Shown here: one piece after another, positions 7,804-30,641 of the stretch
How the letters are laid out: every line of letters begins with the position of its first letter
Position numbering within the stretch: the first letter of the stretch is position 1
Assembly: GCF_030287445.1 (NCBI RefSeq)
Contig: NZ_JASVWB010000002.1
Location: forward strand, 372,001 to 436,000
Source: Streptomyces sp. ALI-76-A
Lineage (GTDB): Bacteria; Actinomycetota; Actinomycetes; Streptomycetales; Streptomycetaceae
Direction of reading: 5' to 3'
DNA: 64,000 nucleotides
Position numbers and translations under genes: made by a program
The notes under the pieces: model-generated
What the model saw: only the letters and a program-made list of their open reading frames with translations
Told to the model about the DNA's origin: nothing
Databases searched by the model: none

Positions 7804-9429
7804 TCAGTGGGCTCGCAGCACATCGAGTGCCGTGAGAGCCGTGTGGAGTTCGGTGCGCTGGTCGCCGGACTCCAGGTCTCGGCCGAGGAGACGCTCGATG
7901 GTGCGCAGGCGTTGGTACATCGTTTCACGGGAGAGGCCGCCCCGGCGTGCGGCGGTGGTCTTGTTGCCGGCCGCTTCGAGGTAGTGGCGCAGGGTCGTCA
8001 GCAGGTCGGTGCCGTGCTGGGTGTCATGATCCATGAGTCGCCCGAGCTGCCGTTCGGCGTACGCCTGGATCCGGGTGTCCTCGCGGAGGGCGTACAGCAG
8101 GCGGTGCAGGCCGATGTCGGACGACTCGTGGAAGGACCGGTCCGCGGGGAGGGGCTGGCCGGGTGGGGTGGCCTCGGCGACGCGGGCCGCCTCGCGGAAC
8201 GAGCGGGCGGTGTCGGAGAGGTCCGTGATCTCCGAGCCGACGCTCACCGCTGCTCGCGGGGCCATGCTCAGTGCGGTGCTGCACATTCGTTCGACGATGG
8301 GGCGCCAGGGTTGGGATGGACGCAGAGCCAGCAGGATGCCGAGGCGGTCGGGGGCCAGCTCGCCGACGAGGGCCGGGATGCCGGCGGTCCGGAGCTCCTG
8401 GGACAGGCGGGTCTCGAGCTCGGTCTTTCCTGTGCCTGTGCGGAGGTCGACCAGGGTCGCGACGAACCGGCTCTGGCGGGTCGGCAAGCCCAGTGCGGCG
8501 CAGCGGGCGTGGGCGTCCGCGGCGGAGCGGTGGCGCTGGTCGACCAGGTCGCGCAGGGCGTTTCGGTGTGCGGTGCGTTCCCAGGGGGTGGAATGGATGA
8601 GGCGGGCGACGGTCAGCGCCATCGCGGTCCGCTCCAGCACGGTGATGTCCTCCGGCCCGGAGGCGGGGCCGTCGGTGCGGGCCGGGAGCATGACCACGCG
8701 GCCCCAGCGCTCGCCCTGGTACTCGACGGGAGCGGTGAGCCAGCCCGCCGGGCCGCGTGTCGGCGTGTGGTCGTCGGCCTCGGCGGCCCTGGAGCGCCGT
8801 TCCCAGCCGATGAGCGCGTCCTCCAGCGTGCCTCCGGACGGTTCGCAGATCAGTGCCTGGTGCGCCAGGTTCTCCAGGACGACCGTGCGGCCGCACATCT
8901 CCGCCGCCGTACGCACCACGTCCTCCGGACCGGCGCCGCGCAGGGTCAGGGCGGTGAACACCTCGTGGATGCGCTGGGTGCGGCGCATCACGTCCGCCTG
9001 GTTGCCGAGCAGGAGGGCGTGCACGACCTGGGTGACTTCCAGGAAGTTGACGTCCTTGGCGAGCGTGACGAGGGGAAGCCCGCGCAGACGGCAGGCGTCG
9101 ACGAGTGCGTCCGGCGGGCGGTGGTAGCGACGTACGAGTTCGATGACCAGCGCCGCGGCCCCGACGTCGGCGAGTTCGTCGACGTACCGACGCACGCCGG
9201 CCACGTCTTCCGGGAGCGGCATTCCGGTGGTCAGGACGAGTTCGCCGCCCTTGAGGAAGGACGCGGGGTCGGTCAGTTCGGTGATGTGGACCCACCTGAC
9301 CGGCCGGTCCAGGTGGGGCTCACCGGTGACGACGTGGGGTTGTCCGGCGGCGAGGACGGGAAGGGCCAGGACGTCGGCGACGCTGGGGGCGCGGGTGGGC
9401 CCATGGCCGGCCGGGTGGGTGTCGTTCAC
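7804..9429 (-). CDS. PucR family transcriptional regulator
   Basis: A 541-residue regulator with the typical PucR layout. The N-terminal sensory domain (about 15-135) includes VADVLALPVLAAGQP and the VRWVHITELTDPASFLKGGE signature. A GGDEF-like middle follows, and the C-terminal PucR-type HTH reads LRHYLEAAGNKTTAARRGG then RETMYQRLRTIERLLG. PucR proteins usually control purine, polyamine or amino acid catabolism and often regulate a divergent operon. GTG 9429 is chosen because GGAGA lies just upstream and the domain begins shortly after. It is transcribed away from the aminotransferase operon starting at 9677, its most likely target. Confidence 0.9.
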   Translation of the reverse strand: MNDTHPAGHGPTRAPSVADVLALPVLAAGQPHVVTGEPHLDRPVRWVHITELTDPASFLKGGELVLTTGMPLPEDVAGVRRYVDELADVGAAALVIELVRRYHRPPDALVDACRLRGLPLVTLAKDVNFLEVTQVVHALLLGNQADVMRRTQRIHEVFTALTLRGAGPEDVVRTAAEMCGRTVVLENLAHQALICEPSGGTLEDALIGWERRSRAAEADDHTPTRGPAGWLTAPVEYQGERWGRVVMLPARTDGPASGPEDITVLERTAMALTVARLIHSTPWERTAHRNALRDLVDQRHRSAADAHARCAALGLPTRQSRFVATLVDLRTGTGKTELETRLSQELRTAGIPALVGELAPDRLGILLALRPSQPWRPIVERMCSTALSMAPRAAVSVGSEITDLSDTARSFREAARVAEATPPGQPLPADRSFHESSDIGLHRLLYALREDTRIQAYAERQLGRLMDHDTQHGTDLLTTLRHYLEAAGNKTTAARRGGLSRETMYQRLRTIERLLGRDLESGDQRTELHTALTALDVLRAH

Positions 9430-9676
9430 GGTGTCTCCATGGGGTCCCCTGCCCGGGCACGGCTCCGTGCCCGGGGTGCCCGGCCACTGTGACAAGCGCC
9501 GCTGACCTGCGCAAGAGCGGTCCGTGAGCGATCGGCGCCCAGCATGGCGCCGGTGAGGCTGACACAACGTCCGGATGTCGCGGCCCGGCCGGACAGATCG
9601 CACGTTGGCGCACCCCTGGTCCGCGGAGATGCTCGGGACACCGCAGCAGACCGCGCACCGAGGCCGGGAGACGAAC

Positions 9677-10945
9677 ATGACCGCACTGTCGCCGCACCTT
9701 CGCCAGGCCACGCCCGTGGTGGCGGTCCGGGGCGAGGGCGTCCACCTCTACGGTGAGGACGGCCGCCGCTACCTCGACTTCACCGCCGGCATCGGCGTCA
9801 CCAGCACCGGGCACTGCCACCCGAAGGTCGTGGCGGCGGCGCAGGAGCAGGTGGGCACGCTGGTGCACGGCCAGTACACGACCGTCATGCACCGGCCGCT
9901 GCGGCAGCTCGTCGAGAAGCTGGGCGAGGTGCTGCCGGCCGGGCTGGACAGTCTGTTCTTCACCAACTCCGGCAGCGAGGCCGTCGAGTCCGCGCTGCGG
10001 CTGGCCCGCCAGGCCACCGGCCGTCCCAACGTCATCGTCTGCCACGGCGGCTTCCACGGCCGTACGGTGGCCGCCGCCTCCATGACGACGTCCGGCACCC
10101 GCTTCCGGTCCGGCTTCTCCCCGCTGATGAGCGGCGTGGTCGTCACCCCCTTCCCGTCGGCCTACCGCTACGGCTGGGACGAGGAGACCGCCACCCGGTT
10201 CGCCCTGCGGGAGCTGGACTACACCCTCCAGACGATCTCCTCGCCCGCCGACACGGCCGCGATCATCGTCGAGCCGGTCCTCGGCGAGGGCGGCTACGTC
10301 CCCGCCACCCGGATGTTCATGGAAGGCCTGCGGGAGCGGGCCGACCGGTACGGCTTCCTCCTCATCCTCGACGAGGTGCAGACCGGCGTCGGCCGCACCG
10401 GCCGCTTCTGGGGCCACGACCACTTCGGCGTCATCCCCGACATCCTCGTCACCGCCAAGGGCCTGGCCAGCGGCTTCCCGCTGTCCGGCATCGCCGCCTC
10501 CGAGGAGCTGATGGCCAAGGCGTGGCCGGGCTCGCAGGGCGGCACGTACGGCGCCAACGCCGTGGCCTGCGCGGCGGCCGTCGCCACCCTCGACGTCGTA
10601 CGCGACGAGAAGCTCGTCGAGAACGCCGAGGCGATGGGGGCCCGCCTGCGCCAGGGCCTGGAGGCGGTGGCCGACCGCACGCCGGGCATCGGCGACGTAC
10701 GCGGTCTCGGTCTGATGCTGGCCACCGAGTTCGTCACCGAGGACGGCGGCCCCGACCCCGACACCGCCGCCCGCGTGCAGCGCGCCGCCATCGACGAGGG
10801 CCTGCTCCTGCTGCTGTGCGGCGCCTGGAACCAGGTCGTACGCATGATCCCGGCGCTCGTCATCGACGAGACCGCGGTGGACGAGGGCCTTCAGGCGTGG
10901 GCCACCGCGGTGGAGGCCGGCACCTCGGGGGCGACAGGGCGATGA
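9677..10945 (+). CDS. Class III aminotransferase (4-aminobutyrate type)
   Basis: A 422-residue PLP-dependent fold-type I aminotransferase. Landmarks are GIGVTSTGHCHPKV near the N-terminus, LFFTNSGSEAVESALRLAR at the PLP-phosphate site, LILDEVQTGVGRTG with the pyridine-binding Asp, and TAKGLASGFPLSG with the Schiff-base lysine near residue 259. This group moves an omega-amino group from GABA or similar diamine-derived acids to a keto acid, giving a semialdehyde. ATG 9677 follows a GGGAG site. The stop overlaps the next ATG (ATGA), so it is translationally coupled to the dehydrogenase; a semialdehyde dehydrogenase is third in the operon and would take its product. Confidence 0.9.
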   Translation: MTALSPHLRQATPVVAVRGEGVHLYGEDGRRYLDFTAGIGVTSTGHCHPKVVAAAQEQVGTLVHGQYTTVMHRPLRQLVEKLGEVLPAGLDSLFFTNSGSEAVESALRLARQATGRPNVIVCHGGFHGRTVAAASMTTSGTRFRSGFSPLMSGVVVTPFPSAYRYGWDEETATRFALRELDYTLQTISSPADTAAIIVEPVLGEGGYVPATRMFMEGLRERADRYGFLLILDEVQTGVGRTGRFWGHDHFGVIPDILVTAKGLASGFPLSGIAASEELMAKAWPGSQGGTYGANAVACAAAVATLDVVRDEKLVENAEAMGARLRQGLEAVADRTPGIGDVRGLGLMLATEFVTEDGGPDPDTAARVQRAAIDEGLLLLLCGAWNQVVRMIPALVIDETAVDEGLQAWATAVEAGTSGATGR

Positions 10946-13836
10946 CCGACACCACCACGGCCCCGGAGCCGCTGGTCGCGCGGCTCGCCGAGACCGCTCC
11001 CGGCCTGCGGGTGGAGACCGGCCCGGGCTCCACCGGTCCGTACGCCTACGACGCCTCCAACTACCGGGTCCCGCCGAGGGCCGTGGTGTTCCCCCGCAGC
11101 ACCGACGACGTGTGCGCGGTGCTGCGGGCCTGCCGGGAGGCGGGCGTCCCCGTCACCGCGCGCGGCGGCGGTACCAGCATGGCGGGCAACGCGGTCGGAC
11201 CGGGTGTGGTCCTGGACTTCTCCCGGCACATGAACCGGATCCTGGACATCGACCCGGTGGCGGGCACCGCGCGTGTCGAGGCCGGGGTGATCCTGGACGC
11301 GCTGCGCGGCGCGACCGCCCCGCACGGGCTGAGCTTCGGCCCCGACCCGTCCTCGCACAGCCGCTGCACCCTCGGCGGGATGATCGGCAACGACGCGTGC
11401 GGCAACCGGTCGGTGCGGCACGGGCGTACCAGCAGCCACATCGAGGCGCTGGAGATCGTCACGGCCGACGGCGTGCGGGCCGTCGCCGACCGGACGGGAC
11501 TGCGCGCGGCCGACCCGGACGACCCGGACGCGGTCCGCCGTGTCGCCCGCCTCGGAGCGGACGTACGGCATCTGGTCGATGCCAACCTGGCGCCCATCCG
11601 CACCGAGCTGGGCCGCGTTCCCCGTCAGGTCTCCGGCTACCAGCTGCACCACCTGCTGCCCGAGCACGGCTTCGACATGGCCCGCGCGCTGGTGGGCACC
11701 GAAGGCTCCTGTGCGGTCGTCACCGCGGCGACGGTCCGCCTGGTGACGACCGCACCGGCCGCCACCCTGCTGACGCTCGGCTACGACGACGTGGTCGACG
11801 CCGCCGAGGACGTCCCCGAGATCCTGCGCTGGAACCCCACCGCCGTGGAGGGCATGGACGAGGCGATCGTCGCCACCATGCGCGCCCGCCGCGGCCCGGA
11901 CTCGGTGACCGGGCTGCCCGAGGGGCGGGCCTGGCTGTACGTCGAACTCGACGGGGACGACCAGACGGCGGTCGACGCCCGCGCCGCCGAACTGCTCGAC
12001 GTGCTCGAGGCCCAGGGCCGGATGACCGGCGGACGGGTCGTGCGGAGCCCTGCCGAACGGCGTTCGCTGTGGCGGGTCCGCGAGGACGGGGCCGGGCTCG
12101 CCGCCCGCCTGGTGGACGGCGGGGAGTCCTGGCCGGGCTGGGAGGACGCGGCGGTCGCGCCCGGGGACCTGGCCGCCTACCTGCGGGACTTCCGCAAGCT
12201 GCTGGCCTCCCACGGCCTGACCGGGGTGCTGTACGGCCACTTCGGTGCGGGCTGTGTGCACGTACGCATCGACTTCGACCTCGCCACGGACGCCGGCCGG
12301 GCCGCGACCCGCCGCTTCCTCGGTGAGGCGGCCGCGCTCGTGGTCTCGCACGGCGGCTCGCTGTCGGGCGAGCACGGGGACGGACGGGCGCGCGGTGAGC
12401 TGCTGGAGATCATGTACAGCCACCGGATGATCCGGACGTTCGCCGCCTTCAAGGAGATCTTCGACCCCGAGGGGCTGCTCAACCCCGGCGTCATCGTGGC
12501 CCCGGCCCGCCTCGACGCCGACCTCGCGCTGCACACGCCCTCCCACGTGCTGCCCGTCGAGAGCCTCTTCTCCTTCCCGCACGACAAGGACGGCTTCGCG
12601 GGCGCGGTACGCCGTTGCGTCGGCGTCGGCCGCTGCCGCAGCGACACGGGCGGTGTGATGTGTCCCAGCTACCGGGCGACCGGGGAGGAGACCGACTCCA
12701 CGCGGGGCCGGGCCCGGCTGCTCCAGGAGATGGTGCGGGGCGACCTCGTCCAGGACGGCTGGCGCTCGACAGAGGTGCGCGACGCCCTCGACCTGTGCCT
12801 GTCCTGCAAGGCGTGCTCCAGTGACTGCCCGGTCGGCGTCGACATGGCCACGTACAAGGCGGAGTTCCTGCACCAGCACTACAAGGGCAGGATCCGGCCC
12901 CGCTCCCACTACTCGCTGGGCTGGCTGCCGCTGACCTCGGCCCTCGCCGGATTCGCCGCCCGCCCGGTCAACGCGCTGCTGCGCGGACCGGTCGGCAAGC
13001 TGCTCGCCCGGCTCGGCGGCGTGACCACGAAGCGCCGGATCCCGGCCTTCGCCTCCCGGCACGCGCTTCGCCGGGCCCTGCGCAAGGCGGAGACCGGTGA
13101 GCCGGCCAAGGCCCTGCTCTTCATCGACAGCTTCACCCGAGCCTTCCGCCCCGAGGTGGCGGGCGCCGCGAGCCGCGTGCTCGCCGACGCCGGGATTCCC
13201 TGCACGGCTCAGGACGGCCTGTGCTGCGGATTGACCTGGGTCAGCACCGGCCAGCTGTCCACCGCCCGCCGCGTCATGGCCCGTACGGTCGCCCACCTCG
13301 ACAACGGCGACGACCGGCCCATCATCGTGGCCGAACCCAGCTGCGCCGCCGCCCTCAAGCGTGACGTGCCCGAACTGCTCGGCACCGACGCCGCCCAGCG
13401 CGTCGCGGCCCGCGTGCACACCTTCACCGGCGCCCTGACCGACCTGGCCGCGCCGGACTGGACCCCGCCGGAGCTGCCGGACCAGGTCGTCCTGCAGACC
13501 CACTGCCACGAGTACGCCACCTTCAAGGGCAGCCACCCCCGCGACCTGCTCGGGCGCCTCGGCGTACGGAAGGTCGACGAGGCCGAGGGCTGCTGCGGAC
13601 TCGCCGGGAACTTCGGCTTCGAGGAACAGCACTACGACACCTCGATGGCCGTCGCCGACCTGGCTCTGAAGCCCCGCCTCGACGACATCACCCAGCACAT
13701 GCCGACGGTCGTGGTGGCCGACGGTTTCAGCTGCGCCACCCAGATCGACCACCTCGCCGGTGACCGGGGCATCCGCGCCCTGCACCTCGCGGAGCTGCTC
13801 GACCCCGCCGCCGATCAACCAGGAGAGACGTCATGA
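10942..13836 (+). CDS. FAD-linked oxidoreductase with 4Fe-4S/CCG C-terminal half (YdiJ / D-2-hydroxyacid dehydrogenase type)
   Basis: A 964-residue fusion. The N-terminal half is a GlcD-type flavoprotein: the FAD_binding_4 loop ARGGGTSMAGNAVGPG is near residue 75, and the cap domain ends at EHGDGRARGELL. The C-terminal half is GlpC-like: an iron-sulfur ferredoxin region has Cys clusters GRCRSDTGGVMCPSY (about 560) and CLSCKACSSDCPVG (about 619), then two CCG motifs (LCCGL about 760, EGCCGLAG about 884). This matches bacterial YdiJ-type enzymes that oxidise D-2-hydroxyglutarate or D-lactate and pass electrons to quinone. It overlaps its neighbours by ATGA on both sides. Confidence 0.9.
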   Translation: MTDTTTAPEPLVARLAETAPGLRVETGPGSTGPYAYDASNYRVPPRAVVFPRSTDDVCAVLRACREAGVPVTARGGGTSMAGNAVGPGVVLDFSRHMNRILDIDPVAGTARVEAGVILDALRGATAPHGLSFGPDPSSHSRCTLGGMIGNDACGNRSVRHGRTSSHIEALEIVTADGVRAVADRTGLRAADPDDPDAVRRVARLGADVRHLVDANLAPIRTELGRVPRQVSGYQLHHLLPEHGFDMARALVGTEGSCAVVTAATVRLVTTAPAATLLTLGYDDVVDAAEDVPEILRWNPTAVEGMDEAIVATMRARRGPDSVTGLPEGRAWLYVELDGDDQTAVDARAAELLDVLEAQGRMTGGRVVRSPAERRSLWRVREDGAGLAARLVDGGESWPGWEDAAVAPGDLAAYLRDFRKLLASHGLTGVLYGHFGAGCVHVRIDFDLATDAGRAATRRFLGEAAALVVSHGGSLSGEHGDGRARGELLEIMYSHRMIRTFAAFKEIFDPEGLLNPGVIVAPARLDADLALHTPSHVLPVESLFSFPHDKDGFAGAVRRCVGVGRCRSDTGGVMCPSYRATGEETDSTRGRARLLQEMVRGDLVQDGWRSTEVRDALDLCLSCKACSSDCPVGVDMATYKAEFLHQHYKGRIRPRSHYSLGWLPLTSALAGFAARPVNALLRGPVGKLLARLGGVTTKRRIPAFASRHALRRALRKAETGEPAKALLFIDSFTRAFRPEVAGAASRVLADAGIPCTAQDGLCCGLTWVSTGQLSTARRVMARTVAHLDNGDDRPIIVAEPSCAAALKRDVPELLGTDAAQRVAARVHTFTGALTDLAAPDWTPPELPDQVVLQTHCHEYATFKGSHPRDLLGRLGVRKVDEAEGCCGLAGNFGFEEQHYDTSMAVADLALKPRLDDITQHMPTVVVADGFSCATQIDHLAGDRGIRALHLAELLDPAADQPGETS

Positions 13837-15272
13837 CCGACACACCCACGCAGTTGTTCATCGGCGGGTCCTGGGTGGATGCCGCGGACGGCGCCACCAT
13901 GCCCGTCGATGACCCCGCGACCGGTGAGATCATCGCCCAGGTCGCCGACGCGGGCGCGAAGGATGCCCGGCTGGCGGAGGACGCGGCCGTCCGGGCGCAG
14001 GGGGAGTGGGCCCGCACGGCACCGCGGGCGCGCAGTGAGATCCTGCGCCGGGCCTACGAGATCATTCTCGAGCGCACCGACGAGCTGGCCCACCTGATGA
14101 CGGCCGAGATGGGCAAGCCGCTGGCCGAGGCCAAGGGAGAGGTGGCGTACGCGGCGGAGTTCTTCCGCTGGTTCTCCGAGGAGGCCGTGCGTATCGACGG
14201 TGGCGGCGGAATTCTGCCCGACGGCCGCAACCGCATGCTGCTCTCCCGTCGCCCGGTCGGACCCTGTCTGCTGATCACCCCGTGGAACTTCCCGCTGGCC
14301 ATGGGCACCCGCAAGATCGGCCCGGCGATCGCCGCCGGCTGCACGATGATCCTCAAGCCTGCCCCGCAGACCCCGCTGTCCAGCCTGGCCCTCGCCGCGA
14401 TCCTCAAGGAGGCCGGGCTGCCGGACGGCGTGCTCAACGTCGTCACCACCTCTCGTGCGGGGGAGGTGTGCGAACCGCTTCTGCGCGGCGGGCGGATGCG
14501 CAAGCTGTCCTTCACCGGCTCCACCGACGTCGGACGCCTGCTGCTCGCCCAGAGTGCGGAGGCGGTCGTGCGGACCTCGATGGAGCTGGGCGGGAACGCG
14601 CCGTTCATCGTCTTCGAGGACGCCGACGTGGACAAGGCGGTCGACGGCGCGATGGTCGCCAAGATGCGCAACATGGGCGAGGCCTGCACCGCCGCCAACC
14701 GCTTCTTCGTCCACAGCTCCGTGGCGGAGGAGTTCGGGCGGCGCCTGGCCCGGCGCATGGGCGCGCTGGTGGTGGGTCCCGGTACCCGGGACGGTGTCGA
14801 CGTCGGCCCGCTGATCGACCGGGTCGGGCGGGCCAAGGTCGAGGAGCTGGTGGCCGACGCGGTGGAGCGTGGCGCCCGGGTGCTCGTGGGCGGCCGTACG
14901 CCCGAGGGGCCGGGCTGCTTCTACCCGCCGACCGTGCTCGCCGACGTCGCCTCCGACAGCCGTCTGATGGACACGGAGATCTTCGGCCCGGTCGCGGCGA
15001 TCCTCACCTTCGACGACGAGGACGAGGTGATCCGGCGCGCCAACGACACCCCCTGGGGCCTGGTCGGCTACGTCTTCACCGAGGGCCTGGACCGTGCCCT
15101 GCGGGTCAGCGAGCGTCTGGAGGTCGGCATGGTCGGCCTCAACACCGGCCTCGTCTCCAACCCGGCCGCTCCCTTCGGCGGCGTCAAGCAGTCCGGGCTG
15201 GGCCGTGAGGGCGGCCGGGTCGGGATCGAGGAGTTCCTGGAGTACCAGTACCTCGCGGTGCCTGTGCGATGA
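13833..15272 (+). CDS. NAD(P)-dependent succinate-semialdehyde dehydrogenase family protein
   Basis: A 479-residue aldehyde dehydrogenase of the GabD class. Landmarks are ITPWNFPLAMGTRKIGPA, the glutamate motif MELGGNAPFIVFEDAD (general base near residue 251) and the nucleophile in MGEACTAANR near residue 282. It is third in a coupled operon behind an omega-aminotransferase and so probably oxidises that enzyme's semialdehyde product, plausibly to succinate. Substrate is inferred from context. A 15-bp hairpin terminator follows at 15318-15360. Confidence 0.88.
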   Translation: MTDTPTQLFIGGSWVDAADGATMPVDDPATGEIIAQVADAGAKDARLAEDAAVRAQGEWARTAPRARSEILRRAYEIILERTDELAHLMTAEMGKPLAEAKGEVAYAAEFFRWFSEEAVRIDGGGGILPDGRNRMLLSRRPVGPCLLITPWNFPLAMGTRKIGPAIAAGCTMILKPAPQTPLSSLALAAILKEAGLPDGVLNVVTTSRAGEVCEPLLRGGRMRKLSFTGSTDVGRLLLAQSAEAVVRTSMELGGNAPFIVFEDADVDKAVDGAMVAKMRNMGEACTAANRFFVHSSVAEEFGRRLARRMGALVVGPGTRDGVDVGPLIDRVGRAKVEELVADAVERGARVLVGGRTPEGPGCFYPPTVLADVASDSRLMDTEIFGPVAAILTFDDEDEVIRRANDTPWGLVGYVFTEGLDRALRVSERLEVGMVGLNTGLVSNPAAPFGGVKQSGLGREGGRVGIEEFLEYQYLAVPVR

Positions 15273-16147: not shown

Positions 16148-16214
16148 CCGGCCCCCATCAGTCGCGTGGCTTCGTCGCTCACCTTGACTCCCTCCCCGGA
16201 GCTGCGGGCACGAC

Positions 16215-16255
16215 TCATGCCGCATTCTAGCATGGCGTTCCACAATACGGCATGA
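16215..16255. promoter_or_regulatory. Candidate IclR operator A
   Basis: Imperfect palindrome upstream of IclR copy 1. The outer arms are TCATGCCG and CGGCATGA. Inside, each half reads TGCCGnATTsTrGmA toward the centre at 16235. The same 35-bp core occurs upstream of IclR copy 2, and the outer arms differ in a compensatory way (TGCCG/CGGCA here, TGCCA/TGGCA there), which argues for a selected dyad. The link to IclR is inferred from position. Confidence 0.65.
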
Positions 16256-16391
16256 AGGGGAATGGCGCCCCATGGTCTTCCCGGCGATGAGCGGCGGGAG
16301 CGCCCCTGCCCCGTCCCGCGTGCCGCGCGCGGCGGCCGCCCTGGAACCGACGCCCCCGGTCGGGCCCGGGGTGACGGCTGCCCTGACATGC

Positions 16392-16439: not shown

Positions 16440-16470
16440 GGTCGGGGCCCTCTTGGGCCACCACCTTCCG

Positions 16471-17223: not shown

Positions 17224-17298
17224 CCGGTTTCCCCCCGTTAATCCGCGGAATTTCTGCTGGACACCTCTTGACTCCCCATCGAGCCGCTGCCATTCTCG

Positions 17299-18642: not shown

Positions 18643-18644
18643 CC

Positions 18645-22960: not shown

Positions 22961-23823
22961 TCGCGCTGCGCTCGACACTGGCCGGACGGATCTTCCTGAC
23001 CGTCGCCTCCACGGTGATCCTGCTGTTCCTCGCCCTGCCGATCGTCCTCATCGTCGTCACCTCCTTCGGCAAGGACGCCTTCGGCGCCTTCCCGCCGGAC
23101 TCCTGGACGCTGGGCTGGTACAAGGTGCTGTTCGCCGACGGCAGCAAGTGGCCGGCCGCGCTGTCGCTGAGCGCCCTGATCGCCTCACTGACCACCGTGT
23201 TCTCGCTCCTCCTGGGCATCACTGCGGCCACGGCACTGGTCCGTAGCAACCTGCCGCTGCGCTCGGCGGTGTACGGACTGGTCCTCGCCCCGCTGGTGAT
23301 CCCCCAAGTGGTCATCGCCCTCGGCCTGTTCCTGCTCTTCGAGCCGGCCGCCATGCTCGGCAGTCCGATCGCCATCGCCCTCGGCCACACCGTGCTCGCC
23401 TCACCGATCGCCGTGATGATCCTCATGGCCACACTGAAGGGCATCGACGAACGGCTGGAGGACGCGGCGGCCAGCATGGGCGCGAACCGGCTCACCGTCG
23501 CCCGGCGCATCACGCTCCCCCTGGCGATGCCCGGCATGATCGCCGCCGCGATCTTCTCCTTCATCACCAGCTTCGACGAGTTCTTCATCTCGCAGTTCCT
23601 GTCCTCGGTGGACACCACGACCCTGCCCGTCCAGGTGTTCAACGTCCTCCAGTTCGATGTCGACCCGTCCGTGACGGCCATCAGCGCGGTGCTCATCGCG
23701 ATCGCCGTCCTGGCCCTCGTCCTGGTCGCCGCCGTGCGCCGACTCGGCGGTGGCGGAAAGCAGGACGGTCTGCTGCCGACGGAGCCCGCGGTGGGCCTGT
23801 CCACCGGGAGTGAGACCTCATGA
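22957..23823 (+). CDS. ABC transporter permease, PotC type
   Basis: A 288-residue permease with six predicted spans. The EAA loop is DAAASMGANRLTVARRITLP, and the ITSFDEFFISQFLS segment is typical of PotC/PotI proteins. ATG 22957 overlaps the previous stop, and its own stop overlaps the start of the aminotransferase, so uptake and catabolic genes are translationally coupled. Confidence 0.9.
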   Translation: MIALRSTLAGRIFLTVASTVILLFLALPIVLIVVTSFGKDAFGAFPPDSWTLGWYKVLFADGSKWPAALSLSALIASLTTVFSLLLGITAATALVRSNLPLRSAVYGLVLAPLVIPQVVIALGLFLLFEPAAMLGSPIAIALGHTVLASPIAVMILMATLKGIDERLEDAAASMGANRLTVARRITLPLAMPGMIAAAIFSFITSFDEFFISQFLSSVDTTTLPVQVFNVLQFDVDPSVTAISAVLIAIAVLALVLVAAVRRLGGGGKQDGLLPTEPAVGLSTGSETS

Positions 23824-25211
23824 CCACCAGCACCCGCACCCCGGCCGGTGAACTGTCCGCCACCGCGGCCAGACACCTGCTGCTCAACATGACCCCCAAC
23901 GGCTCGCTCGGCCCGGAAGGTGAGAACCTCCTCGTCATCCGGCGGGGCGAGGGCCCGTACGTCGACGACGCCGACGGCAGGCGCTACATCGACGGCCTGT
24001 CCGGGCTGTACTGCTGCCAGCTCGGCTACTCCTACGGCCCCGAGTTCGCCGAGGCGGCCCAGAAGCAACTGCGCGAGCTGTGCTACAGCCCGCTGTGGAC
24101 CTCCTCCGCGCACCCGACGGCGATCGAACTCGCCGAGCGGCTGTCCCGGATCGCCCCCGTGGACATCGAGCACACCTTTTTCTCCAGCGGCGGCGCCGAA
24201 GCCGTCGAGACCGCCTGGAAGATCGCCCGCCGCTACCACGCGCTGCGCGGCGAACCGGGCCGCACCAAGGCCATCTCTCGGCGCGGCGCCTACCACGGCC
24301 TGACCATCGGCACCCTGTCGCTCACCGACGACCCCGGCCTGACTGAGCCGTACGGCCCGCCGGCGATCGACACCCGGTTCGTGGCCAACACCAACCGCTT
24401 CGGTCTCGCACCGGAATACGCGGACGACGACCTGTACACGGCCCGGCTGCTCGCCGAGCTGGAGGACGCGATCCTGGCCGAGGGCCCGGAGACCGTCGCC
24501 ATGCTCATCGCAGAGCCGGTGCAGAACCGGGGCGGCTGCATCACCCCGCCCCAGGGTTACTGGCAAGGTCTGCGGGCGCTGGCCGACCGGTACGGCTTCC
24601 TGCTCGTCGCCGACGAGGTGATCACGGCCTTCGGCCGGGTCGGGGAGTGGTTCGGCGGGGACCGCTACGGCGCCCGCCCGGACATGGTCACCGTCGCCAA
24701 GGGCATCACCGCCGGTTACGCCCCCATGGGGGCAACCCTGGTCAGCAATCGCGTCGTCGAGGTCATCAACCGGCCCGGCGTGGTCCTCAACCACGGCTAC
24801 ACCTTCGGCGGGCACCCGCTGAGCGCGGCCATCGCCCTGCGCAACCTGGAGATCATGGAGCGGGACCGGATCCTGGAGAACGTCCGTGACCTCCAGGACC
24901 ACCTGGCGGGCCGGATGACATCGCTCGCGGACCTGCCGATCGTCGGCGACGTCCGGGGCGCCGGGTTCTTCTACGCCTGCGAACTCGTCGGCGACCACGA
25001 GGACGGCGGCTTCGGCGACACCGCCCGCGCCGACCTGATCGTCGACCTGATCCCGCGCCGGCTGCGTGAGGCCGGCCTCCTCGCCCGCGTCTACAACCGG
25101 TCCGCGCCACTGGTCCAGATCGCGCCCCCGCTGATCAGCGACCGGGCCCTTCTCGACCGTATCGCCGACATCCTCGCGGAGACCCTCGCCGAGGCGTCCG
25201 CCCGCATCTGA
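23820..25211 (+). CDS. Class III aminotransferase (putrescine/beta-alanine-pyruvate type)
   Basis: A 463-residue PLP enzyme of the omega-aminotransferase group. Landmarks are LSGLYCCQLGYSYGPEFAEA, HTFFSSGGAEAVETAWKIAR, LLVADEVITAFGRVGEWFG with the cofactor Asp, and TVAKGITAGYAPMGA with the catalytic lysine near residue 294. It is much closer to diamine and taurine transaminases than to the 9677 enzyme, which belongs to the GABA-type subgroup. Placed directly behind the importer, it probably deaminates the imported amine or its first breakdown product. Confidence 0.88.
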   Translation: MTTSTRTPAGELSATAARHLLLNMTPNGSLGPEGENLLVIRRGEGPYVDDADGRRYIDGLSGLYCCQLGYSYGPEFAEAAQKQLRELCYSPLWTSSAHPTAIELAERLSRIAPVDIEHTFFSSGGAEAVETAWKIARRYHALRGEPGRTKAISRRGAYHGLTIGTLSLTDDPGLTEPYGPPAIDTRFVANTNRFGLAPEYADDDLYTARLLAELEDAILAEGPETVAMLIAEPVQNRGGCITPPQGYWQGLRALADRYGFLLVADEVITAFGRVGEWFGGDRYGARPDMVTVAKGITAGYAPMGATLVSNRVVEVINRPGVVLNHGYTFGGHPLSAAIALRNLEIMERDRILENVRDLQDHLAGRMTSLADLPIVGDVRGAGFFYACELVGDHEDGGFGDTARADLIVDLIPRRLREAGLLARVYNRSAPLVQIAPPLISDRALLDRIADILAETLAEASARI

Positions 25212-25234: not shown

Positions 25235-26188
25235 ATGTACTCCATCGGTCCACTGACCGTCGCCCCCGGCGAGCGCGCCCAAGGCCTCATCCCGGTCGGC
25301 ACCAGCAGCTACGGTGTGGAACTCGGCATCCCACTGATCGTCGTCAACGGCGCCCAGGACGGCCCGGTCCTGTGTGTGGACGCCGGCGTGCACGGCGACG
25401 AGTACGACGGCCAGGAGGCCGTCCGCCGCGTGGTCGCCGAGATCGACCCGGCCACCCTGCGCGGCACGCTCGTCGCCATCCCCTGCATGAACACCCCGGC
25501 CTTCGAGGCGGCGGCCCGCACCAGCGGCCTGGACCACCTCAACCTCAACCGCATCTTCCCCGGTGACGCGGACGGCTCGTACTCGCTGCGCCTGGCCGCC
25601 ACCTTCGTCGAACAGGTCGTCCCCGCCATCGACGCCCTGGTCGACCTGCACACCGGCGGCACGTTCGGTGAGATCGCCCCGCTGGTCATCCTTCAGGGCG
25701 GCTACGAGGAACTGGCGACGGACATGGCCCTCGCGGCCGGGCACGAGCTGGTCTGGAAGGGCGGCAAGTGGGGCGGCACAGTGCGCCACCCCACCCTCGC
25801 GGCCGGCAAGCCCGCCATCACCATCGAGGTCGGCGGCGGCACCTACCGCGAGGAGAACGTCGCCCTGCACATGCACTCCATCCGCAACATCCTCCGGCAA
25901 CTCGGCATGATCGACGGTGCGGCGGAGCTGCGGGACACCTACACCACTGTCTCCGGCACTTTCGCCCGCTCCGACGCCGGCGGCTTCTTCGTCGGCCACG
26001 CCGAGCCGGGGGACACCTGCAAGGAAGGCGACCTGATCGCCCACATCGTCGACCACTACGGCAACACGCTGGAGGAGGTCCGCGCCCCGCAGGACGGCAT
26101 CGTGCTCTGGGTCCGCCGGATCCGTACCGTGCGCCCCGGCGACGAAGTCGTCATCTTCGGCGAGGTGCAGGGGGAGATCCGGCCATGA
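25235..26188 (+). CDS. Succinylglutamate desuccinylase/aspartoacylase family deacylase, copy 2
   Basis: A 317-residue AstE/AspA-type zinc deacylase. Ligands lie in AGVHGDEYDGQEAV and VDLHTGGTF, with LNLNRIFPGD between them and a C-terminal beta domain around VRAPQDGIVLWVRRI. It is clearly related to the 18645 protein but diverged, so the two may remove different acyl groups or act at different steps. A GGAAAGG site precedes ATG 25235. Its stop overlaps the aldehyde dehydrogenase start. Confidence 0.87.
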   Translation: MYSIGPLTVAPGERAQGLIPVGTSSYGVELGIPLIVVNGAQDGPVLCVDAGVHGDEYDGQEAVRRVVAEIDPATLRGTLVAIPCMNTPAFEAAARTSGLDHLNLNRIFPGDADGSYSLRLAATFVEQVVPAIDALVDLHTGGTFGEIAPLVILQGGYEELATDMALAAGHELVWKGGKWGGTVRHPTLAAGKPAITIEVGGGTYREENVALHMHSIRNILRQLGMIDGAAELRDTYTTVSGTFARSDAGGFFVGHAEPGDTCKEGDLIAHIVDHYGNTLEEVRAPQDGIVLWVRRIRTVRPGDEVVIFGEVQGEIRP

Positions 26189-27645
26189 CCGGCGAACTGC
26201 GGTTGACCGAGCTGCTGATCGACGGCAAGCAGGTGCCCGCCGCCGACGGACGCTCCTTCACGGTCCTCGACCCGTCCGACGGTACGGTCATCACCCATGT
26301 CGCGCTGGCCGGCAAGGCGGACGTGGACCAGGCGGTCGCGGCGGCACGCTCGGCCCTCACCTCTCCCGAATGGGCCCGCATGCGGGCCGCCGACCGGGGC
26401 CGCATCCTCTACCGGATCGCGGAGGCCATCCGCTACCAGGGCGAGCGGCTGGCCCGCCTGGAGAGCCAGGACGTCGGCAAGCCGCTCCGCCAGGCGAAGG
26501 CCGACGTCGAGGCCGCCGCCCGCTACTTCGAGTTCTACGCGGGCGTCGCCGACAAGCTCGGCGGCACGACGATCCCTCTCGGGCCCGGCCTGATCGACTA
26601 CACCGTGCGCGAGCCGATCGGTGTGTCCGGCCAGATCATCCCGTTCAACTACCCGCTGCAGAACACCGCGAGGGGCTCCGCCCCGGCGCTGGCGGCAGGG
26701 TGCACGGTCGTGCTCAAGCCGTCGCCGGAGGCGCCGCTCAGCCCGCTGGAGATCGGCAGAATCGCCCTGGAGTGCGGTCTCCCGCCGGGCGTTCTCAACG
26801 TCGTCCCCGGTGACGGCGAGACCGGCGCGGCCCTCGCCGGGCACCCGGACATCGACCAGGTCACTTTCACCGGCTCGGTGCCGACCGGCATCAAGGTCGC
26901 CCAGGCCGCCGCCGCCAACGTGGTGCCGTCCGTCACCGAGCTGGGCGGCAAATCCCCGGTCGTCGTCTTCGCCGACGCCGACTTCGACCTGGCGCTGACC
27001 GCGGTCGCGGCCTCGGCCTTCGGCAACGCCGGCCAGACCTGCTCGGCCGGCACCCGGCTGCTGCTCCAGCGCGGCGCCGAGGAGTTCCTCGACAAGCTGG
27101 TCGCGTACGCCGCCTCGCTGCGCATCGGCCCGGGTCTCACCGACCCGGACATCGGCCCGCTCGTCGTCGGCAGGCAGCGCGACCGGGTGCTGGGCTACCT
27201 GGACCTGGCCCGCGAGGAGGGCGCCGTGGCACGGGCCGGCGGCGGTGCGCCGTCCGACCCGGCCCTGGCCGACGGCTACTACGTCGAGCCGACCGTCCTC
27301 ACCGGCCTGAGCAACGACGCCCGGTGCGCCCGCGAGGAGATCTTCGGCCCCGTCGTCACCGTCATCGAGTTCGACGACGCCGACGAGGCCCTGGACATCG
27401 CCAACGACAGCCCGTACGGCCTCGCGTCTTACGTCTGGACCCGTGACATCGACAAAGCGATGCGGCTCGCCGAGGGCATCCGGGCCGGCCAGGTCTACGT
27501 CAACGCCACCGGCGTCGGCACCGGCGTCGAACTCCCCTTCGGTGGCTACAAGCACAGCGGCTGGGGCCGGGAGAAGGGCCTAGCGGCCCTCGACAGCTAC
27601 ACGCAGACCAAGAACGTCTGCATCGGATTCGGAAGCCGGTCATGA
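26185..27645 (+). CDS. Aldehyde dehydrogenase family protein
   Basis: A 486-residue NAD(P)-dependent aldehyde dehydrogenase. Landmarks are IPFNYPLQNTARGSAPALAA, TELGGKSPVVVFADAD with the general base near residue 252, and NAGQTCSAGTRLLLQ with the nucleophilic Cys near 284. It resembles gamma-aminobutyraldehyde and betaine aldehyde dehydrogenases. It is coupled to its neighbours by ATGA on both sides and probably oxidises the amino-aldehyde made by the transaminase or an oxidase in the operon. Confidence 0.9.
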   Translation: MTGELRLTELLIDGKQVPAADGRSFTVLDPSDGTVITHVALAGKADVDQAVAAARSALTSPEWARMRAADRGRILYRIAEAIRYQGERLARLESQDVGKPLRQAKADVEAAARYFEFYAGVADKLGGTTIPLGPGLIDYTVREPIGVSGQIIPFNYPLQNTARGSAPALAAGCTVVLKPSPEAPLSPLEIGRIALECGLPPGVLNVVPGDGETGAALAGHPDIDQVTFTGSVPTGIKVAQAAAANVVPSVTELGGKSPVVVFADADFDLALTAVAASAFGNAGQTCSAGTRLLLQRGAEEFLDKLVAYAASLRIGPGLTDPDIGPLVVGRQRDRVLGYLDLAREEGAVARAGGGAPSDPALADGYYVEPTVLTGLSNDARCAREEIFGPVVTVIEFDDADEALDIANDSPYGLASYVWTRDIDKAMRLAEGIRAGQVYVNATGVGTGVELPFGGYKHSGWGREKGLAALDSYTQTKNVCIGFGSRS

Positions 27646-28580
27646 GATACCGCACGCTCGGCGAGCGCGGTCCGGTTGTCTCAGTGGTCGGCGTCGGCGG
27701 CAACAACTTCGGCGCACGTCTGGACGAGGAGGGCACGAAGGCCGTCGTCCACGCGGCCCTCGACGCCGGGATCACTCTGTTCGACACGGCCGACATGTAC
27801 GGCGGCTTCGGCGAACAGGGCGGCTCGCGCGGCGACGGCGAACGCCTTCTCGGCGCTGCCCTCAAGGGACGCCGGGACGAGGTCGTCCTGGCGACCAAGT
27901 TCGGTATGGAGATGGGGCCGGAGGCGGACCTCCACGGCCGGCGCGGTGCCCGCTCCTACATCCGGTACGCCGTCGAGGCGTCCCTGCGCCGGCTCGGCAC
28001 CGACCGGATCGACCTGTACCAGTACCACGAGCCGGACGGCGTCACCCCGCTGGAGGAGACCGTCGCCGCGCTCCGTGAACTGGTCGACGAGGGCAAGATC
28101 GGTCACATCGGCTGCTCCAACCTCCCACCCGAGCAGCTCACCGGCGCCTTCGTGTCGACCCAGGCCCGTTACCACCTGCTCGACCGCGGCGTGGAGCGGG
28201 ACCTGATCCCGGCCTGTCTGCACAGCGGCGTGGGCCTGCTGCCGTACTACCCGCTGGCCAACGGCCTGCTCAGCGGAAAGTACCGGCGCGGTGAGCAGCC
28301 CCCGGCCGGCAGCCGGCTGTCCTGGCGGCAGGGCTGGCTCACCGACGCGGCCCTCGACAAGGTTGAGGCGCTCTCCGGCTACGGCGCCGAACGAGGACTC
28401 ACCCTCCTGGAGGTCGCCGTGGGCGCACTGGCCGCGCTCCCCGCCGTCGGCTCCGTCATCTGCGGCGCCATGACCCCCGAACAGGTCACCGCCAACGCGG
28501 CGGCGGCCGAATGGATCCCCGACCCGGCCGACCTGGCCGCACTCGACGCGATCGTCACCCCCGGCGAACGCGTCGTCTGA
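27642..28580 (+). CDS. Aldo/keto reductase
   Basis: A 312-residue AKR TIM barrel. The catalytic Asp and Tyr lie in LFDTADMYGG, the lysine in VVLATKFG and the histidine in LYQYHEPDG; the NADP-binding end is around VICGAMTPEQVTANAAA. It probably reduces an aldehyde or ketone, and may be an overflow or detoxifying branch beside the dehydrogenase. It overlaps the dehydrogenase by 4 bp. Confidence 0.88.
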   Translation: MRYRTLGERGPVVSVVGVGGNNFGARLDEEGTKAVVHAALDAGITLFDTADMYGGFGEQGGSRGDGERLLGAALKGRRDEVVLATKFGMEMGPEADLHGRRGARSYIRYAVEASLRRLGTDRIDLYQYHEPDGVTPLEETVAALRELVDEGKIGHIGCSNLPPEQLTGAFVSTQARYHLLDRGVERDLIPACLHSGVGLLPYYPLANGLLSGKYRRGEQPPAGSRLSWRQGWLTDAALDKVEALSGYGAERGLTLLEVAVGALAALPAVGSVICGAMTPEQVTANAAAAEWIPDPADLAALDAIVTPGERVV

Positions 28581-28637: not shown

Positions 28638-29309
28638 ATGCGAGAGATCGTCACCTTCGACGCCTATGGAACCCTGGTCGACTTCCAGCTCGGCCCCACC
28701 ACCCTGAAGATCCTTGCCGACTCCGGCCGGCTGGACCTGGACAACCTGGACGTCGACGAGTTCCTCGACGACTTCCGCGTCATGCGCTTCCAGGCCGTCC
28801 TGGAGGCCTACCGTCCGTACCACGAGATCCTGCACTCCAGCCTGCGCAACGCCATGCGCCTGCACGGCCTGGAGTACCGGGACTCCGACGGTGACGCCCT
28901 CGTCGATGCCGTCCCCACCTTCGGTCCCTTCCCGGAGGTCCCGGACGCGCTGCGCGCCCTGAAGACCAAGTACGAGATCGCCATCATCTCCAACACCGAC
29001 GACAACCTGATCGCGCGGAACGTCGAGAACATCGGCGTCGAGTTCGACCACGTCATCACCGCCCAGCAGGCGGGCGCCTACAAGCCGGACCGCCAGACCT
29101 TCGAGCACGCCTTCAAGACCATGGGCGTCGAGCCGTCCCAGGTCATCCACACCGCCCAGGGCTGGGAGTACGACCACATCCCGACCCGCGACCTCGGCCT
29201 GAAGCGCCGGGTGTGGATCAACCGCTACGGCCGCCCCGGCAGCGCCGACTACCAGCCGTACGACGAGCTGCCCGACCTGTCGGGCCTGCCGAAGCTGCTC
29301 GGCTGCTGA
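28638..29309 (+). CDS. Haloacid dehalogenase type II family hydrolase
   Basis: A 223-residue HAD-superfamily enzyme. The nucleophile Asp is in TFDAYGTLVDF, the Ser/Thr motif in IISNTDDN, the lysine in AGAYKPDRQTF, and the acidic pair in YDHIPTRDLGL. It has the length and helical cap of L-2-haloacid dehalogenases, but many members act on phosphates or other leaving groups. Its place between the aldo/keto reductase and the amine oxidase is unusual and suggests a specific step rather than housekeeping. The substrate is unknown. Confidence 0.85.
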   Translation: MREIVTFDAYGTLVDFQLGPTTLKILADSGRLDLDNLDVDEFLDDFRVMRFQAVLEAYRPYHEILHSSLRNAMRLHGLEYRDSDGDALVDAVPTFGPFPEVPDALRALKTKYEIAIISNTDDNLIARNVENIGVEFDHVITAQQAGAYKPDRQTFEHAFKTMGVEPSQVIHTAQGWEYDHIPTRDLGLKRRVWINRYGRPGSADYQPYDELPDLSGLPKLLGC

Positions 29310-29357
29310 CCGACGGCGCACCGGCGAAACAGACCGAGAACACAGAGGACGCACGCC

Positions 29358-30641
29358 ATGAAGCAGATCCCCTACTGGCTGGACACAGCCCCCGCCTTCC
29401 CCGACCGTTCCGGAAAGGACCTGCCCGACGAGGCGGACGTGGTGGTGATCGGCGGCGGTCTCACCGGCCTGTCCACCGCCTACCACGCTGCCCGTAAGGG
29501 CGCCCGGGTCGTCCTGGTGGAGAAGGACAAGGTGGGCTCGGGCGCCTCCGGGCGCAACGGCAGCATGTGCACCCAGGGCATCACCATCAGCCCCGCCGAG
29601 GCGCGCAAGCGCTACGGGCAGGAGCGGGCCCGTGAGTTGTACGACGCCTTCCGCGACGCGGTCGACGTCGTCGAGAGGCTCACCCACACCGAGAACATCG
29701 ACTGCGACTTCCACCGCTCCGGGCGCCTGGGCGCGGTCTGCAAGCCCGGGCACTTCGATGGCCTGCGGGCCACGCAGCGCGACCTGGCCGACAACTTCGG
29801 ACACGAGACGATCGTCCTGAGCAAGAGCGAACTGCGGACCGAGCTCGGCACGGACTACTACCACGGTGCGCTGCTCGACCCGCTCAGCGCGGGCCTGCAC
29901 GTGGGCAAGTTCGTCGGCGGCCTGGCAGACGCCGCCGAGCGTGCCGGCGCCGAGATCCACGAGCGCAACGCGGCCACCGGCCTCACCCGCCTCCCCGGCG
30001 GCGGCTTCCTGGTGGAGACCATGAACGGCACCATCCGTGCCAAGCAGGTCATGGCGGCGACCGACGCCTACACCGACAGGTCGATGCCGTGGTTCCGCAA
30101 GCGGCTGATCAACGTCGGCAGCTTCATCATCGTCACCGAGCCGCTGGAGGAGGCGCGCGCCAAGGAGCTCATCCCGAACGGCCGCCTGCTGGTCGCCCAC
30201 AAGAACGTCGGCCACTACGTCCGCCTCACCCCGGACAACCGCCTCGCCTTCGGCGGCCGGGCCCGCTTCGCCCCGTCCAACCCGGCCTCCGACGTCAAGA
30301 GCGGCGGCATCCTCAAGAGGGAGATGACGGAGATCTTCCCGCAGCTGGCCGGGACCCGGATCGACTACGTCTGGGGCGGCATGGTCGGCTTCTCCTGGGA
30401 CCGCATCCCGCACGCGGGTGAGGTCAACGGCCTGTACTACTCCATGGGTTACTGCGGCCACGGCGTCCAGATGGCCACGTACATGGGCCGGGCCGTGGCC
30501 GAGATGATGGACGGCAAGCCGGAGGCCAACCCGCTGCGCGGCTTCGGCTTCCCGAAGGTGCCCGTCCCCTTCTACAACGGCACGCCCTGGTTCCTGCCGT
30601 TCGGCGGTGCCTACTACAAGGCGAAGGACCGGCTGCTCTGA
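29358..30641 (+). CDS. FAD-dependent oxidoreductase, gamma-glutamylputrescine oxidase (PuuB)/DadA type
   Basis: A 427-residue DAO-fold flavoprotein. The FAD Rossmann motif is VVVIGGGLTGLSTAYHAARK, followed by GSGASGRNGSMC; the C-terminal FAD loop is YYSMGYCGHGVQMATYMGRA. It resembles PuuB, which oxidises gamma-glutamylputrescine to the aldehyde with release of ammonia and H2O2. No gamma-glutamyl ligase is nearby, so an acylated amine supplied from outside is a reasonable substrate guess. It is the last gene of the operon and is followed by a strong hairpin. Confidence 0.85.
   Translation: MKQIPYWLDTAPAFPDRSGKDLPDEADVVVIGGGLTGLSTAYHAARKGARVVLVEKDKVGSGASGRNGSMCTQGITISPAEARKRYGQERARELYDAFRDAVDVVERLTHTENIDCDFHRSGRLGAVCKPGHFDGLRATQRDLADNFGHETIVLSKSELRTELGTDYYHGALLDPLSAGLHVGKFVGGLADAAERAGAEIHERNAATGLTRLPGGGFLVETMNGTIRAKQVMAATDAYTDRSMPWFRKRLINVGSFIIVTEPLEEARAKELIPNGRLLVAHKNVGHYVRLTPDNRLAFGGRARFAPSNPASDVKSGGILKREMTEIFPQLAGTRIDYVWGGMVGFSWDRIPHAGEVNGLYYSMGYCGHGVQMATYMGRAVAEMMDGKPEANPLRGFGFPKVPVPFYNGTPWFLPFGGAYYKAKDRLL

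Follow-up and report, generated by a model that had tools for sequence, protein, structure and literature searches.

Plants rely on nicotianamine to manage their iron, zinc, copper, and nickel; in grasses, secreted mugineic acids serve to acquire iron. Mugineic acids are derived from nicotianamine, and the genes of phytosiderophore metabolism were unknown according to a 2021 paper (PMC7786132). Hydrolysis of azetidine-2-carboxylate (AZC) to 2-hydroxy-4-aminobutyrate, followed by transamination, has been described in a Pseudomonas strain (PMC8016842), and the ectoine route combines the deacylase DoeB, a class III aminotransferase, and an enzyme like succinate-semialdehyde dehydrogenase (SSADH), with aspartate as a product (PMC5924519). 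Here, we describe a gene cluster at positions 7804-30641 of a 64-kb stretch of DNA (the window) from the 9.69-Mb genome of Streptomyces sp. ALI-76-A. Tentatively, we propose that its two operons serve to catabolize an N-substituted AZC, with nicotianamine and/or mugineic acids as the most likely candidates. Gene content, conservation, families, and neighbors were computed, and from these we infer the substrates, the sequence of reactions, and which chelator is used.

The first block (9677-15272) encodes a class III aminotransferase (AT3a), a YdiJ-like dehydrogenase, and an SSADH-like enzyme, with a divergent PucR gene, and two IclR genes lie between it and the second block of 12 genes (17503-30641, plus strand). 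Genes within 17503-28580 overlap or are separated by at most 76 bp on the plus strand and are shortly followed by those for a type II HAD hydrolase (28638) and a DAO-fold oxidase (29358, hereafter DAO). Pfam and NCBIfam profile scans of 20 open reading frames (ORFs) found all of the families listed in an earlier note on this DNA (PucR, two IclR, two class III aminotransferases, two aldehyde dehydrogenases (ALDHs), two DAO-fold oxidases, two AstE/AspA enzymes, type II HAD, aldo/keto reductase, YdiJ type, and an importer) encoded where it had located them (Table 1). Mutual identity was 31% for the two aminotransferases, 39% for the two ALDHs, 32% for the two AstE/AspA enzymes, and 24% over 248 aa for the two DAO-fold oxidases.

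The HAD enzyme points to AZC. Its closest relative of known structure was AZC hydrolase (3smv) in a single-sequence comparison (100 bits), and a profile of its family scored 3smv at 124 bits, 8hp5-8hp7 at 116-120, epoxysuccinate hydrolases at 77, and other dehalogenases at about 70 or less. The chains 8hp5-8hp7 were deposited as (S)-2-haloacid dehalogenase; because the title of 8hp7 names trapped (2R)-4-amino-2-hydroxybutanoic acid, the product of AZC opening, we take them for AZC hydrolase as well. The low scores of the remaining dehalogenases make haloacid dehalogenation less likely, and we propose that HAD 28638 is a putative L-azetidine-2-carboxylate hydrolase. Structure comparison did not tell AZC hydrolase and dehalogenases apart, and generic names alone were found among the 120 matches listed for the HAD profile in a protein collection. 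Separately, HAD paralogues number two or three in each of four genomes (G048, G360, G940, and G936), where they lie within about 3-34 kb, and one of them might act on a hydroxylated azetidine.

A HAD of the AZC-hydrolase type would yield a D-2-hydroxyacid, which would explain the YdiJ block next door. Judged from coordinates, YdiJ adjoins the main operon in 15 of the 20 genomes tested; thus, the 9677 and 17503 operons belong together. The order PucR, AT3a, YdiJ, SSADH was kept in all 16 fetched blocks, including that of S. scabiei, which lies 226 kb off. The five genomes without adjacent YdiJ comprise two Kribbella, S. scabiei (L071), L082, and L018, the last counted as non-adjacent since its contig ends first. 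In Kribbella, the only YdiJ relatives show 52% and 48% identity and are found on a different contig (L048) or at a distance of 200 kb (L058), and both Kribbella loci carry a tartrate/D-malate dehydrogenase gene 4 kb after DAO, as a D-2-hydroxyacid product of HAD would lead one to expect. The same expectation accounts for this dehydrogenase, a family that presumably also oxidizes D-malate, in 8 of 18 plasmid loci with HAD/DAO relatives and in none of six control stretches. Two unrelated D-2-hydroxyacid dehydrogenases, of the YdiJ and tartrate/D-malate types, seem to replace one another. The AZC-type branch, running from HAD through AT3a and SSADH to YdiJ, is in our view moderately probable.

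The earlier note had called the locus a catabolic island with no obvious known equivalent and had suggested comparing gene order across actinobacteria. Species genomes were scanned with the AstE/AspA gene at 25235 as the probe, and 80 of the 95 loci found were kept. The 12-gene block recurred in mostly the same order in these 80 relatives, from Streptomyces to Lentzea and Kribbella, with probe identity of up to 99% in the nearest named relatives, all Streptomyces. Since the block is kept in dozens of genomes and the GC content of the cluster resembles that of the remaining window, it is not a unique island. Of 57 loci with 8.5 kb or more upstream, 56 contained MTOX and the first AstE/AspA gene, 53 the second IclR gene, 52 the importer genes, and 50 AT3b; of 79 loci with 5.4 kb or more downstream, 77 contained ALDH and HAD, 75 DAO, and 73 the aldo/keto reductase. 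Hosts beyond Streptomyces were Saccharothrix, Kribbella, Lentzea, Nonomuraea, and Micromonospora. The distribution was patchy in broader samples: out of 394 genomes of the class, four gave a HAD match at E<=1e-40, two of these being distant (39-41%). Three Lentzea loci (L075, L077, and L078) are without the Pot-type importer and AT3b, and in L075 an amino-acid-type importer (SBP_bac_3) occupies their place. Two Streptomyces loci (L035 and L044) retain just MTOX and the two AstE/AspA genes, beside a tartrate/D-malate dehydrogenase gene. Additionally, several loci (L008, L010, L012, L046, L075, L077, L078, and others) have an adjacent pair of MTOX genes at their upstream end, with about 85-88% and 68-72% identity to the single MTOX of the window.

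Paired relatives of HAD and DAO were also found in other actinobacteria and on plasmids from rhizobia, Paracoccus, Serratia, Klebsiella, the Burkholderiales (Massilia, Paraburkholderia, and Acidovorax), and others. From 21 plasmid regions fetched, 18 oxidase-bearing loci were tallied (L101 via a HAD search, the other 17 via oxidase searches), leaving out L102 and L110, which have HAD and no oxidase, and L109, which has no annotation. By similarity, with some self-matches because some reference proteins come from tallied loci, these loci contained HAD (13), a GNAT of one family (11), a GhrA-type reductase (10), a deacylase (9; ArgE in 5 and M20 in 4), and the tartrate/D-malate dehydrogenase (8); SSADH was found in 15 by similarity, which caught other ALDHs too, and in 10 by annotation. 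At the same thresholds, none of these six occurred in six 50-kb control stretches, which were taken from records already having metal genes or TonB receptors near the cluster and give a rate valid for such records. AstE/AspA was found in none and MTOX in one of the 18 loci at the thresholds used, and a second solA is annotated in Mesorhizobium 10 kb from the HAD-DAO pair. The systems are linked across two phyla by a cupin: those encoded next to SSADH in S. stelliscabiei, S. cyaneochromogenes, and S. scabiei are 65-66% identical to that of a Paracoccus HAD-DAO cluster. Whole or cut copies (64-79% identical) occur in 13 Streptomyces genomes, and none in the window. Variants in the proposed D-malate enzyme (YdiJ or tartrate/D-malate dehydrogenase), the oxidase (MTOX or other), and the importer (Pot, PAAT, or Opp type) span Streptomyces, Rhodococcus, rhizobia, Burkholderia, and enterobacterial plasmids.

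Two further features of related clusters were observed. Four proteobacterial clusters (L100, L111, L103, and L105) add ornithine-cyclodeaminase-family, threonine-dehydratase, or alanine-racemase-like genes, which to our eye recall the beta-hydroxyaspartate cycle and would suit hydroxylated mugineic acids. Five loci (L106, L114, L115, L116, and L118), in which MTOX was not seen, encode a (2Fe-2S) protein and two flavin oxidoreductases, sets that we take to resemble opine oxidases.

Lipoprotein 19782 of the importer scored 174-106 bits against its eight nearest solved binding proteins, including 4i1d (174, no ligand named), a GABA sensor (141), and binders of agropine (136), 'Polyamine' (4eq7, 132), and mannopine (130), and 61 bits against PotD. 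It is not of the PotD/PotF type (PotD model 57 bits, cut-off 582). Because the GABA, agropine, mannopine, and 4eq7 binders score well above PotD, an opine-like amino-carboxylate appears to be a better guess for import than putrescine or spermidine. The polyamine-type importer of the earlier note therefore holds for the ABC family and not for the binding protein, and a polyamine route was set aside as the first choice on account of this protein and of the absence of a ligase from the block. Some glutamine-synthetase-family proteins of S. coelicolor are gamma-glutamylpolyamine synthetases, and Streptomyces-type polyamine use with a GlnA-type ligase encoded elsewhere would make the oxidase, ALDH, aminotransferase, and PucR later steps. 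The overlapping gene families and the four Gln-synt_C genes of this genome agree with this, but all four lie at a distance of over 1.6 Mb, neither the block nor the 20 neighbor families scanned in the 80 loci included a ligase or gamma-glutamyl hydrolase family, and the binding protein, HAD, and YdiJ would be left unexplained, which makes it very improbable.

The earlier note had itself proposed that an already acylated compound, which we read as an acylated polyamine or an ectoine-like acyl-diaminobutyrate, is imported, deacylated, oxidized, and transaminated toward succinate. Two DoeB-like deacylases, class III aminotransferases, and ALDHs are indeed shared with the ectoine route (PMC5924519). 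However, the ectoine route was rejected because the genome contains no ectoine hydrolase above the cut-off (best 71 bits, cut-off 613). The binding protein is also far from PotD, and HAD, the D-hydroxyacid dehydrogenase, and aspartase would have no role; we regard this proposal as improbable. The note was right that the cluster has no gamma-glutamyl ligase, ectoine hydrolase, or arginine succinyltransferase (AstA; none in the 20 ORFs scanned, to which the AstA search was limited), and that this amine catabolic set matches none of the Puu, Doe, and Ast pathways, with no described equivalent found in the papers searched. Import in an already acylated form is possible, and acylation inside the cell would fit equally, since a GNAT accompanies an ArgE- or M20-type deacylase in certain related clusters.

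An aspartate ammonia-lyase (aspartase) gene (TIGR00839, 703 bits, over the cut-off of 681) starts about 36-246 bp after DAO in 36 of the 70 loci having a DAO gene and sufficient room; ten loci, five of them lacking a DAO match, were left out of this count. It was not present at this position in the other 34, including the closest relatives of the window, and in Kribbella (L048) DAO is followed by genes for an aminotransferase, SSADH, and alanine dehydrogenase. Because aspartase recurs after DAO, one product is probably aspartate. The recurrent neighbors thus point to aspartate/fumarate and D-malate rather than to the succinate end point suggested previously. An alternative substrate is an opine-like or N-alkylated C4 amino acid lacking the azetidine ring (an aspartate-derived chelator such as EDDS or aspergillomarasmine, a staphylopine-type metallophore, or an N-methyl/N-alkyl 4-aminobutyrate) that is degraded to aspartate and malate, with HAD acting on another C2-substituted acid. 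Aspartase in half of the loci, the opine/GABA-type binding protein, the sarcosine-oxidase-type enzyme, and the metal genes of one subgroup are consistent with such a substrate. Neither the conserved AZC-hydrolase-type HAD, present in 77 of 79 loci, nor the D-2-hydroxyacid dehydrogenase would then have a role; these two fit each other, and we consider such a substrate rather unlikely.

An AZC unit bearing amino-carboxypropyl groups would fit the cluster because the two oxidases match the N-C cuts, ALDH and aspartase the C4 aldehyde, and HAD the ring, and because a D-malate branch is present. In the proposed route, the ABC importer would take in an opine-like amino-polycarboxylate, and MTOX and the DAO oxidase would cleave its secondary and tertiary amine C-N bonds, releasing one C4 aldehyde per cut (aspartate semialdehyde or, in the case of mugineic acids, malate semialdehyde) and AZC in the end. 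The ALDH (26185) would then yield aspartate, and aspartase would convert it to fumarate in the relatives having this enzyme. Ring opening of AZC by HAD, with inversion, would give (2R)-4-amino-2-hydroxybutanoate; D-malate would be reached from there by way of AT3a and the SSADH-like enzyme, and YdiJ would oxidize D-malate to oxaloacetate. For the two AstE/AspA enzymes, deacylation of N-acylated C4 amino-acid intermediates is the probable role. That the substrate is nicotianamine or mugineic acids is put forward with more reserve than the AZC-type branch and is, in our view, somewhat less likely than not. With slightly more reserve still, the cluster might be the first gene set for bacterial breakdown of these compounds, in which two oxidases give C4 aldehydes that become aspartate and the ring is opened with inversion toward D-malate.

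Some points weaken this interpretation. The two AstE/AspA enzymes are unexplained, as they need an amide and nicotianamine has none, and the metal genes described below are not in significant excess across the 18 plasmid loci. The HxxE...H and Glu residues aligned with DoeB, presumably the metal and catalytic residues, are conserved in both AstE/AspA proteins, which score 124 and 80 bits with the DoeB model (cut-off 403). Deacylases of differing families are found repeatedly in such clusters (AstE/AspA in this one, ArgE and M20 on plasmids), which makes an N-acyl intermediate likely, and certain plasmid clusters include a GNAT that could produce it. No GNAT was found among the block ORFs scanned in the Streptomyces operon, and one was nearby in 1 of the 80 window-type loci. 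The single relative of the R. opacus-type GNAT in this genome is 41% identical and lies about 6.8 Mb further along this contig; such a distant GNAT, or an outside source, could supply the acyl group.

A role for the deacylases would be provided if the substrate were free AZC or N-acetyl-AZC from fungal or bacterial detoxification, which AstE/AspA would deacetylate, HAD would open, and AT3a, SSADH, and YdiJ would finish, leaving the oxidases to other N-substituted azetidines. Fungi acetylate AZC with Mpr1/NgnA and assimilate it via AzhA and the GABA route (PMC8016842), the HAD profile is nearest to AZC hydrolase, and GNATs with ArgE/M20 deacylases recur in related clusters. Against this, the two oxidases, ALDH, aspartase, and the second aminotransferase would be idle, and no GNAT was found in the Streptomyces operon. 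Mpr1-like acetylation was not borne out, as the GNAT of Paracoccus L108 gave weak matches to solved chains, with no clear match to a solved acetyltransferase and none labelled Mpr1. We judge this alternative distinctly unlikely.

Metal-related genes were associated with one actinobacterial subgroup having an Opp-type importer and a GNAT, in which all four clusters (R. opacus B4 plasmid, L098; G048, L091; G360, L092; and G940, L132/L133) contain a cation-efflux (CDF) or VIT gene; these clusters are mutually related and do not represent four independent events. The R. opacus cluster also encodes an ArsR/SmtB metalloregulator and aspartase. Among the solved relatives of its binding protein, those ranked second and fourth are nickel-binding proteins. 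No metal genes were found in the other actinobacterial clusters L109, L138, and L136/L137. Copper genes or metal ATPases occur near some plasmid loci and siderophore receptors near others, but the excess of metal genes was not significant (4 of 18 plasmid loci vs 1 of 12 control windows, p = 0.32). Relatives of CDF, VIT, CopBCD, CueR, CsoR, and ArsR were not found around the 80 window-type loci. Six of these loci, a number with no background rate for comparison, have a zinc-type ABC-3 permease (L008, L077, and L078) or a heavy-metal-ATPase relative (L012, L013, and L053). The zinc-importer genes lie 1-4 kb beyond the cluster in Streptomyces L008 (16878-20699, with ZnuA and an ABC ATPase) and in Lentzea L077 and L078 (from about 17400).

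The intergenic region between the second IclR gene and MTOX contains two palindromes that are common to many Streptomyces loci and are likely IclR operators. The first motif has its sole copy, and the second its sole exact copy, in the window here. One operator shared by both operons was rejected, as these palindromes were not found before the 9677 (AT3a) operon. Alignment of upstream regions outside Streptomyces was uninformative, and the coordinates taken may be off. No riboswitch or other Rfam match was found in the window, and its one tRNA gene lies at 53 kb.

Table 1. Features of the cluster: feature, coordinates in the window, strand, and evidence (bit scores of profile or solved-chain matches; presence among relatives).
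PucR-family regulator ORF	7804..9711	-	PF07905 122 bits; PucR domain from residue 113, true start probably internal; heads AT3a block in 16/16 fetched blocks
AT3a, GABA-transaminase-like class III aminotransferase, proposed 4-amino-2-hydroxybutanoate transaminase	9677..10945	+	PF00202 390 bits; TIGR00700 344 bits, under cut-off 507; 87-96% identity in 16 conserved blocks
YdiJ-like FAD/4Fe-4S D-2-hydroxyacid dehydrogenase, proposed for D-malate to oxaloacetate	10942..13836	+	NF049975 442 bits, under cut-off 1350; adjoins main operon in 15/20 genomes
SSADH-like aldehyde dehydrogenase, proposed D-malate-semialdehyde dehydrogenase	13833..15272	+	TIGR01780 579 bits, cut-off 646; in 16/16 blocks
IclR-family regulator a, ORF with N-terminal extension	15398..16531	-	PF01614 126 bits; not seen in some relatives
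IclR-family regulator b, divergent from main operon	16471..17223	-	PF01614 141 bits; 53/57 loci with room
Two neighboring palindromic operator-like sites, GTGCCA-N5-TAGCAC and TTCCACAATGTGGCAC	17298..17334	.	10-base pieces in 28-40/55 upstream regions
MTOX, monomeric sarcosine/N-methyltryptophan-oxidase-family flavoenzyme, proposed secondary-amine oxidase	17503..18642	+	NF008425 306 bits, over cut-off 257; nearest solved chain 7exs 213 bits; 56/57 loci
AstE/AspA-family zinc hydrolase a	18639..19706	+	PF24827 101 bits; DoeB-aligned His/Glu residues kept; 56/57 loci
Solute-binding lipoprotein, opine/GABA type	19782..20888	+	Solved-chain comparison, 4i1d 174 bits vs PotD 61
ABC ATPase (PotA-like)	20881..22026	+	TIGR01187 343 bits, cut-off 356; 52/57 loci
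ABC permease (PotB-like)	22028..22960	+	PF00528; 52/57 loci
ABC permease (PotC-like)	22957..23823	+	PF00528 on longer ORF 22843-23823; 52/57 loci
AT3b, omega-amino acid:pyruvate-type class III aminotransferase	23820..25211	+	NF005102 537 bits, cut-off 574; nearest solved chain 9gh9 (Streptomyces aminotransferase) 412 bits; 50/57 loci
AstE/AspA-family zinc hydrolase b, closest named relative DoeB	25235..26188	+	TIGR02994 124 bits, cut-off 403; nearest solved chain DoeB 6twm 108 bits
Aldehyde dehydrogenase, proposed aspartate-semialdehyde dehydrogenase	26185..27645	+	PF00171 540 bits on longer ORF 25768-27645; 77/79 loci
Aldo/keto reductase, role not fixed	27642..28580	+	PF00248 209 bits; 73/79 loci
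Type II HAD hydrolase, proposed L-azetidine-2-carboxylate hydrolase	28638..29309	+	TIGR01428 134 bits, cut-off 125; best solved chain 3smv 100 bits; 77/79 loci
DAO-fold flavin oxidase, partner of HAD	29358..30641	+	PF01266 229 bits; best named model pipecolate oxidase AmaA 180 bits, cut-off 600; 75/79 loci

Upstream of the PucR gene, the window encodes an Opp/Nik-type binding protein (SBP_bac_5) and two permeases (1-2932, continuing to the left; L093:8743-11933), and in the Saccharothrix relative L151, OppF, OppD, and two permeases directly adjoin PucR. A Mycothiol-S-transferase (MST) domain protein (7006-7617) and a BtrH_N/DUF4872 protein (60422-61414) are unrelated to the cluster.

Searches of mostly open literature on AZC hydrolase, on the degradation of nicotianamine, mugineic acids, and phytosiderophores, and on this gene combination found no description of these genes, which is no proof of absence. 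Our proposal offers candidate genes for the breakdown of nicotianamine-type chelators, a process without identified genes. If it is true, such genes would be named in Streptomyces, with related clusters in rhizobia and others, and microbial use of plant metal chelators would be testable by gene removal. Functions would also be suggested for a widespread pair annotated as 'haloacid dehalogenase type II' and 'FAD-binding oxidoreductase'.

Compared with known systems, the cluster shares PucR, a DAO-type oxidase, ALDH, a class III aminotransferase, and an ABC importer with the Puu/gamma-glutamyl-polyamine pathways, in which these families have roles, whereas the block has no gamma-glutamyl ligase or hydrolase. 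The solute-binding protein belongs to the same family as those for mannopine/agropine uptake in Agrobacterium (MotA and AgaA type, 106-136 bits), and an opine-like ligand would be expected here, too; the mannopine/agropine catabolic genes of Agrobacterium differ from those of the cluster. Ectoine degradation (Doe/Eut) is similar in its DoeB-family deacylases, class III aminotransferase, SSADH-like enzyme, and aspartate product (PMC5924519), whereas the present system has no ectoine hydrolase above the cut-off, deacylases far below the DoeB cut-off, and additional HAD, YdiJ, and two oxidases. AZC assimilation, represented by the AC-hydrolase of Pseudomonas A2C and by AzhA and the GABA route of A. 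nidulans, is alike in its type II HAD, which provides the nearest solved structure, its transamination, and a GABA-like route (PMC8016842). No oxidases are described in the parts of PMC8016842 used here, whereas the present cluster adds a flavin oxidase to which HAD is fixed, a second oxidase, an importer, two AstE/AspA enzymes, and a dedicated D-hydroxyacid dehydrogenase.

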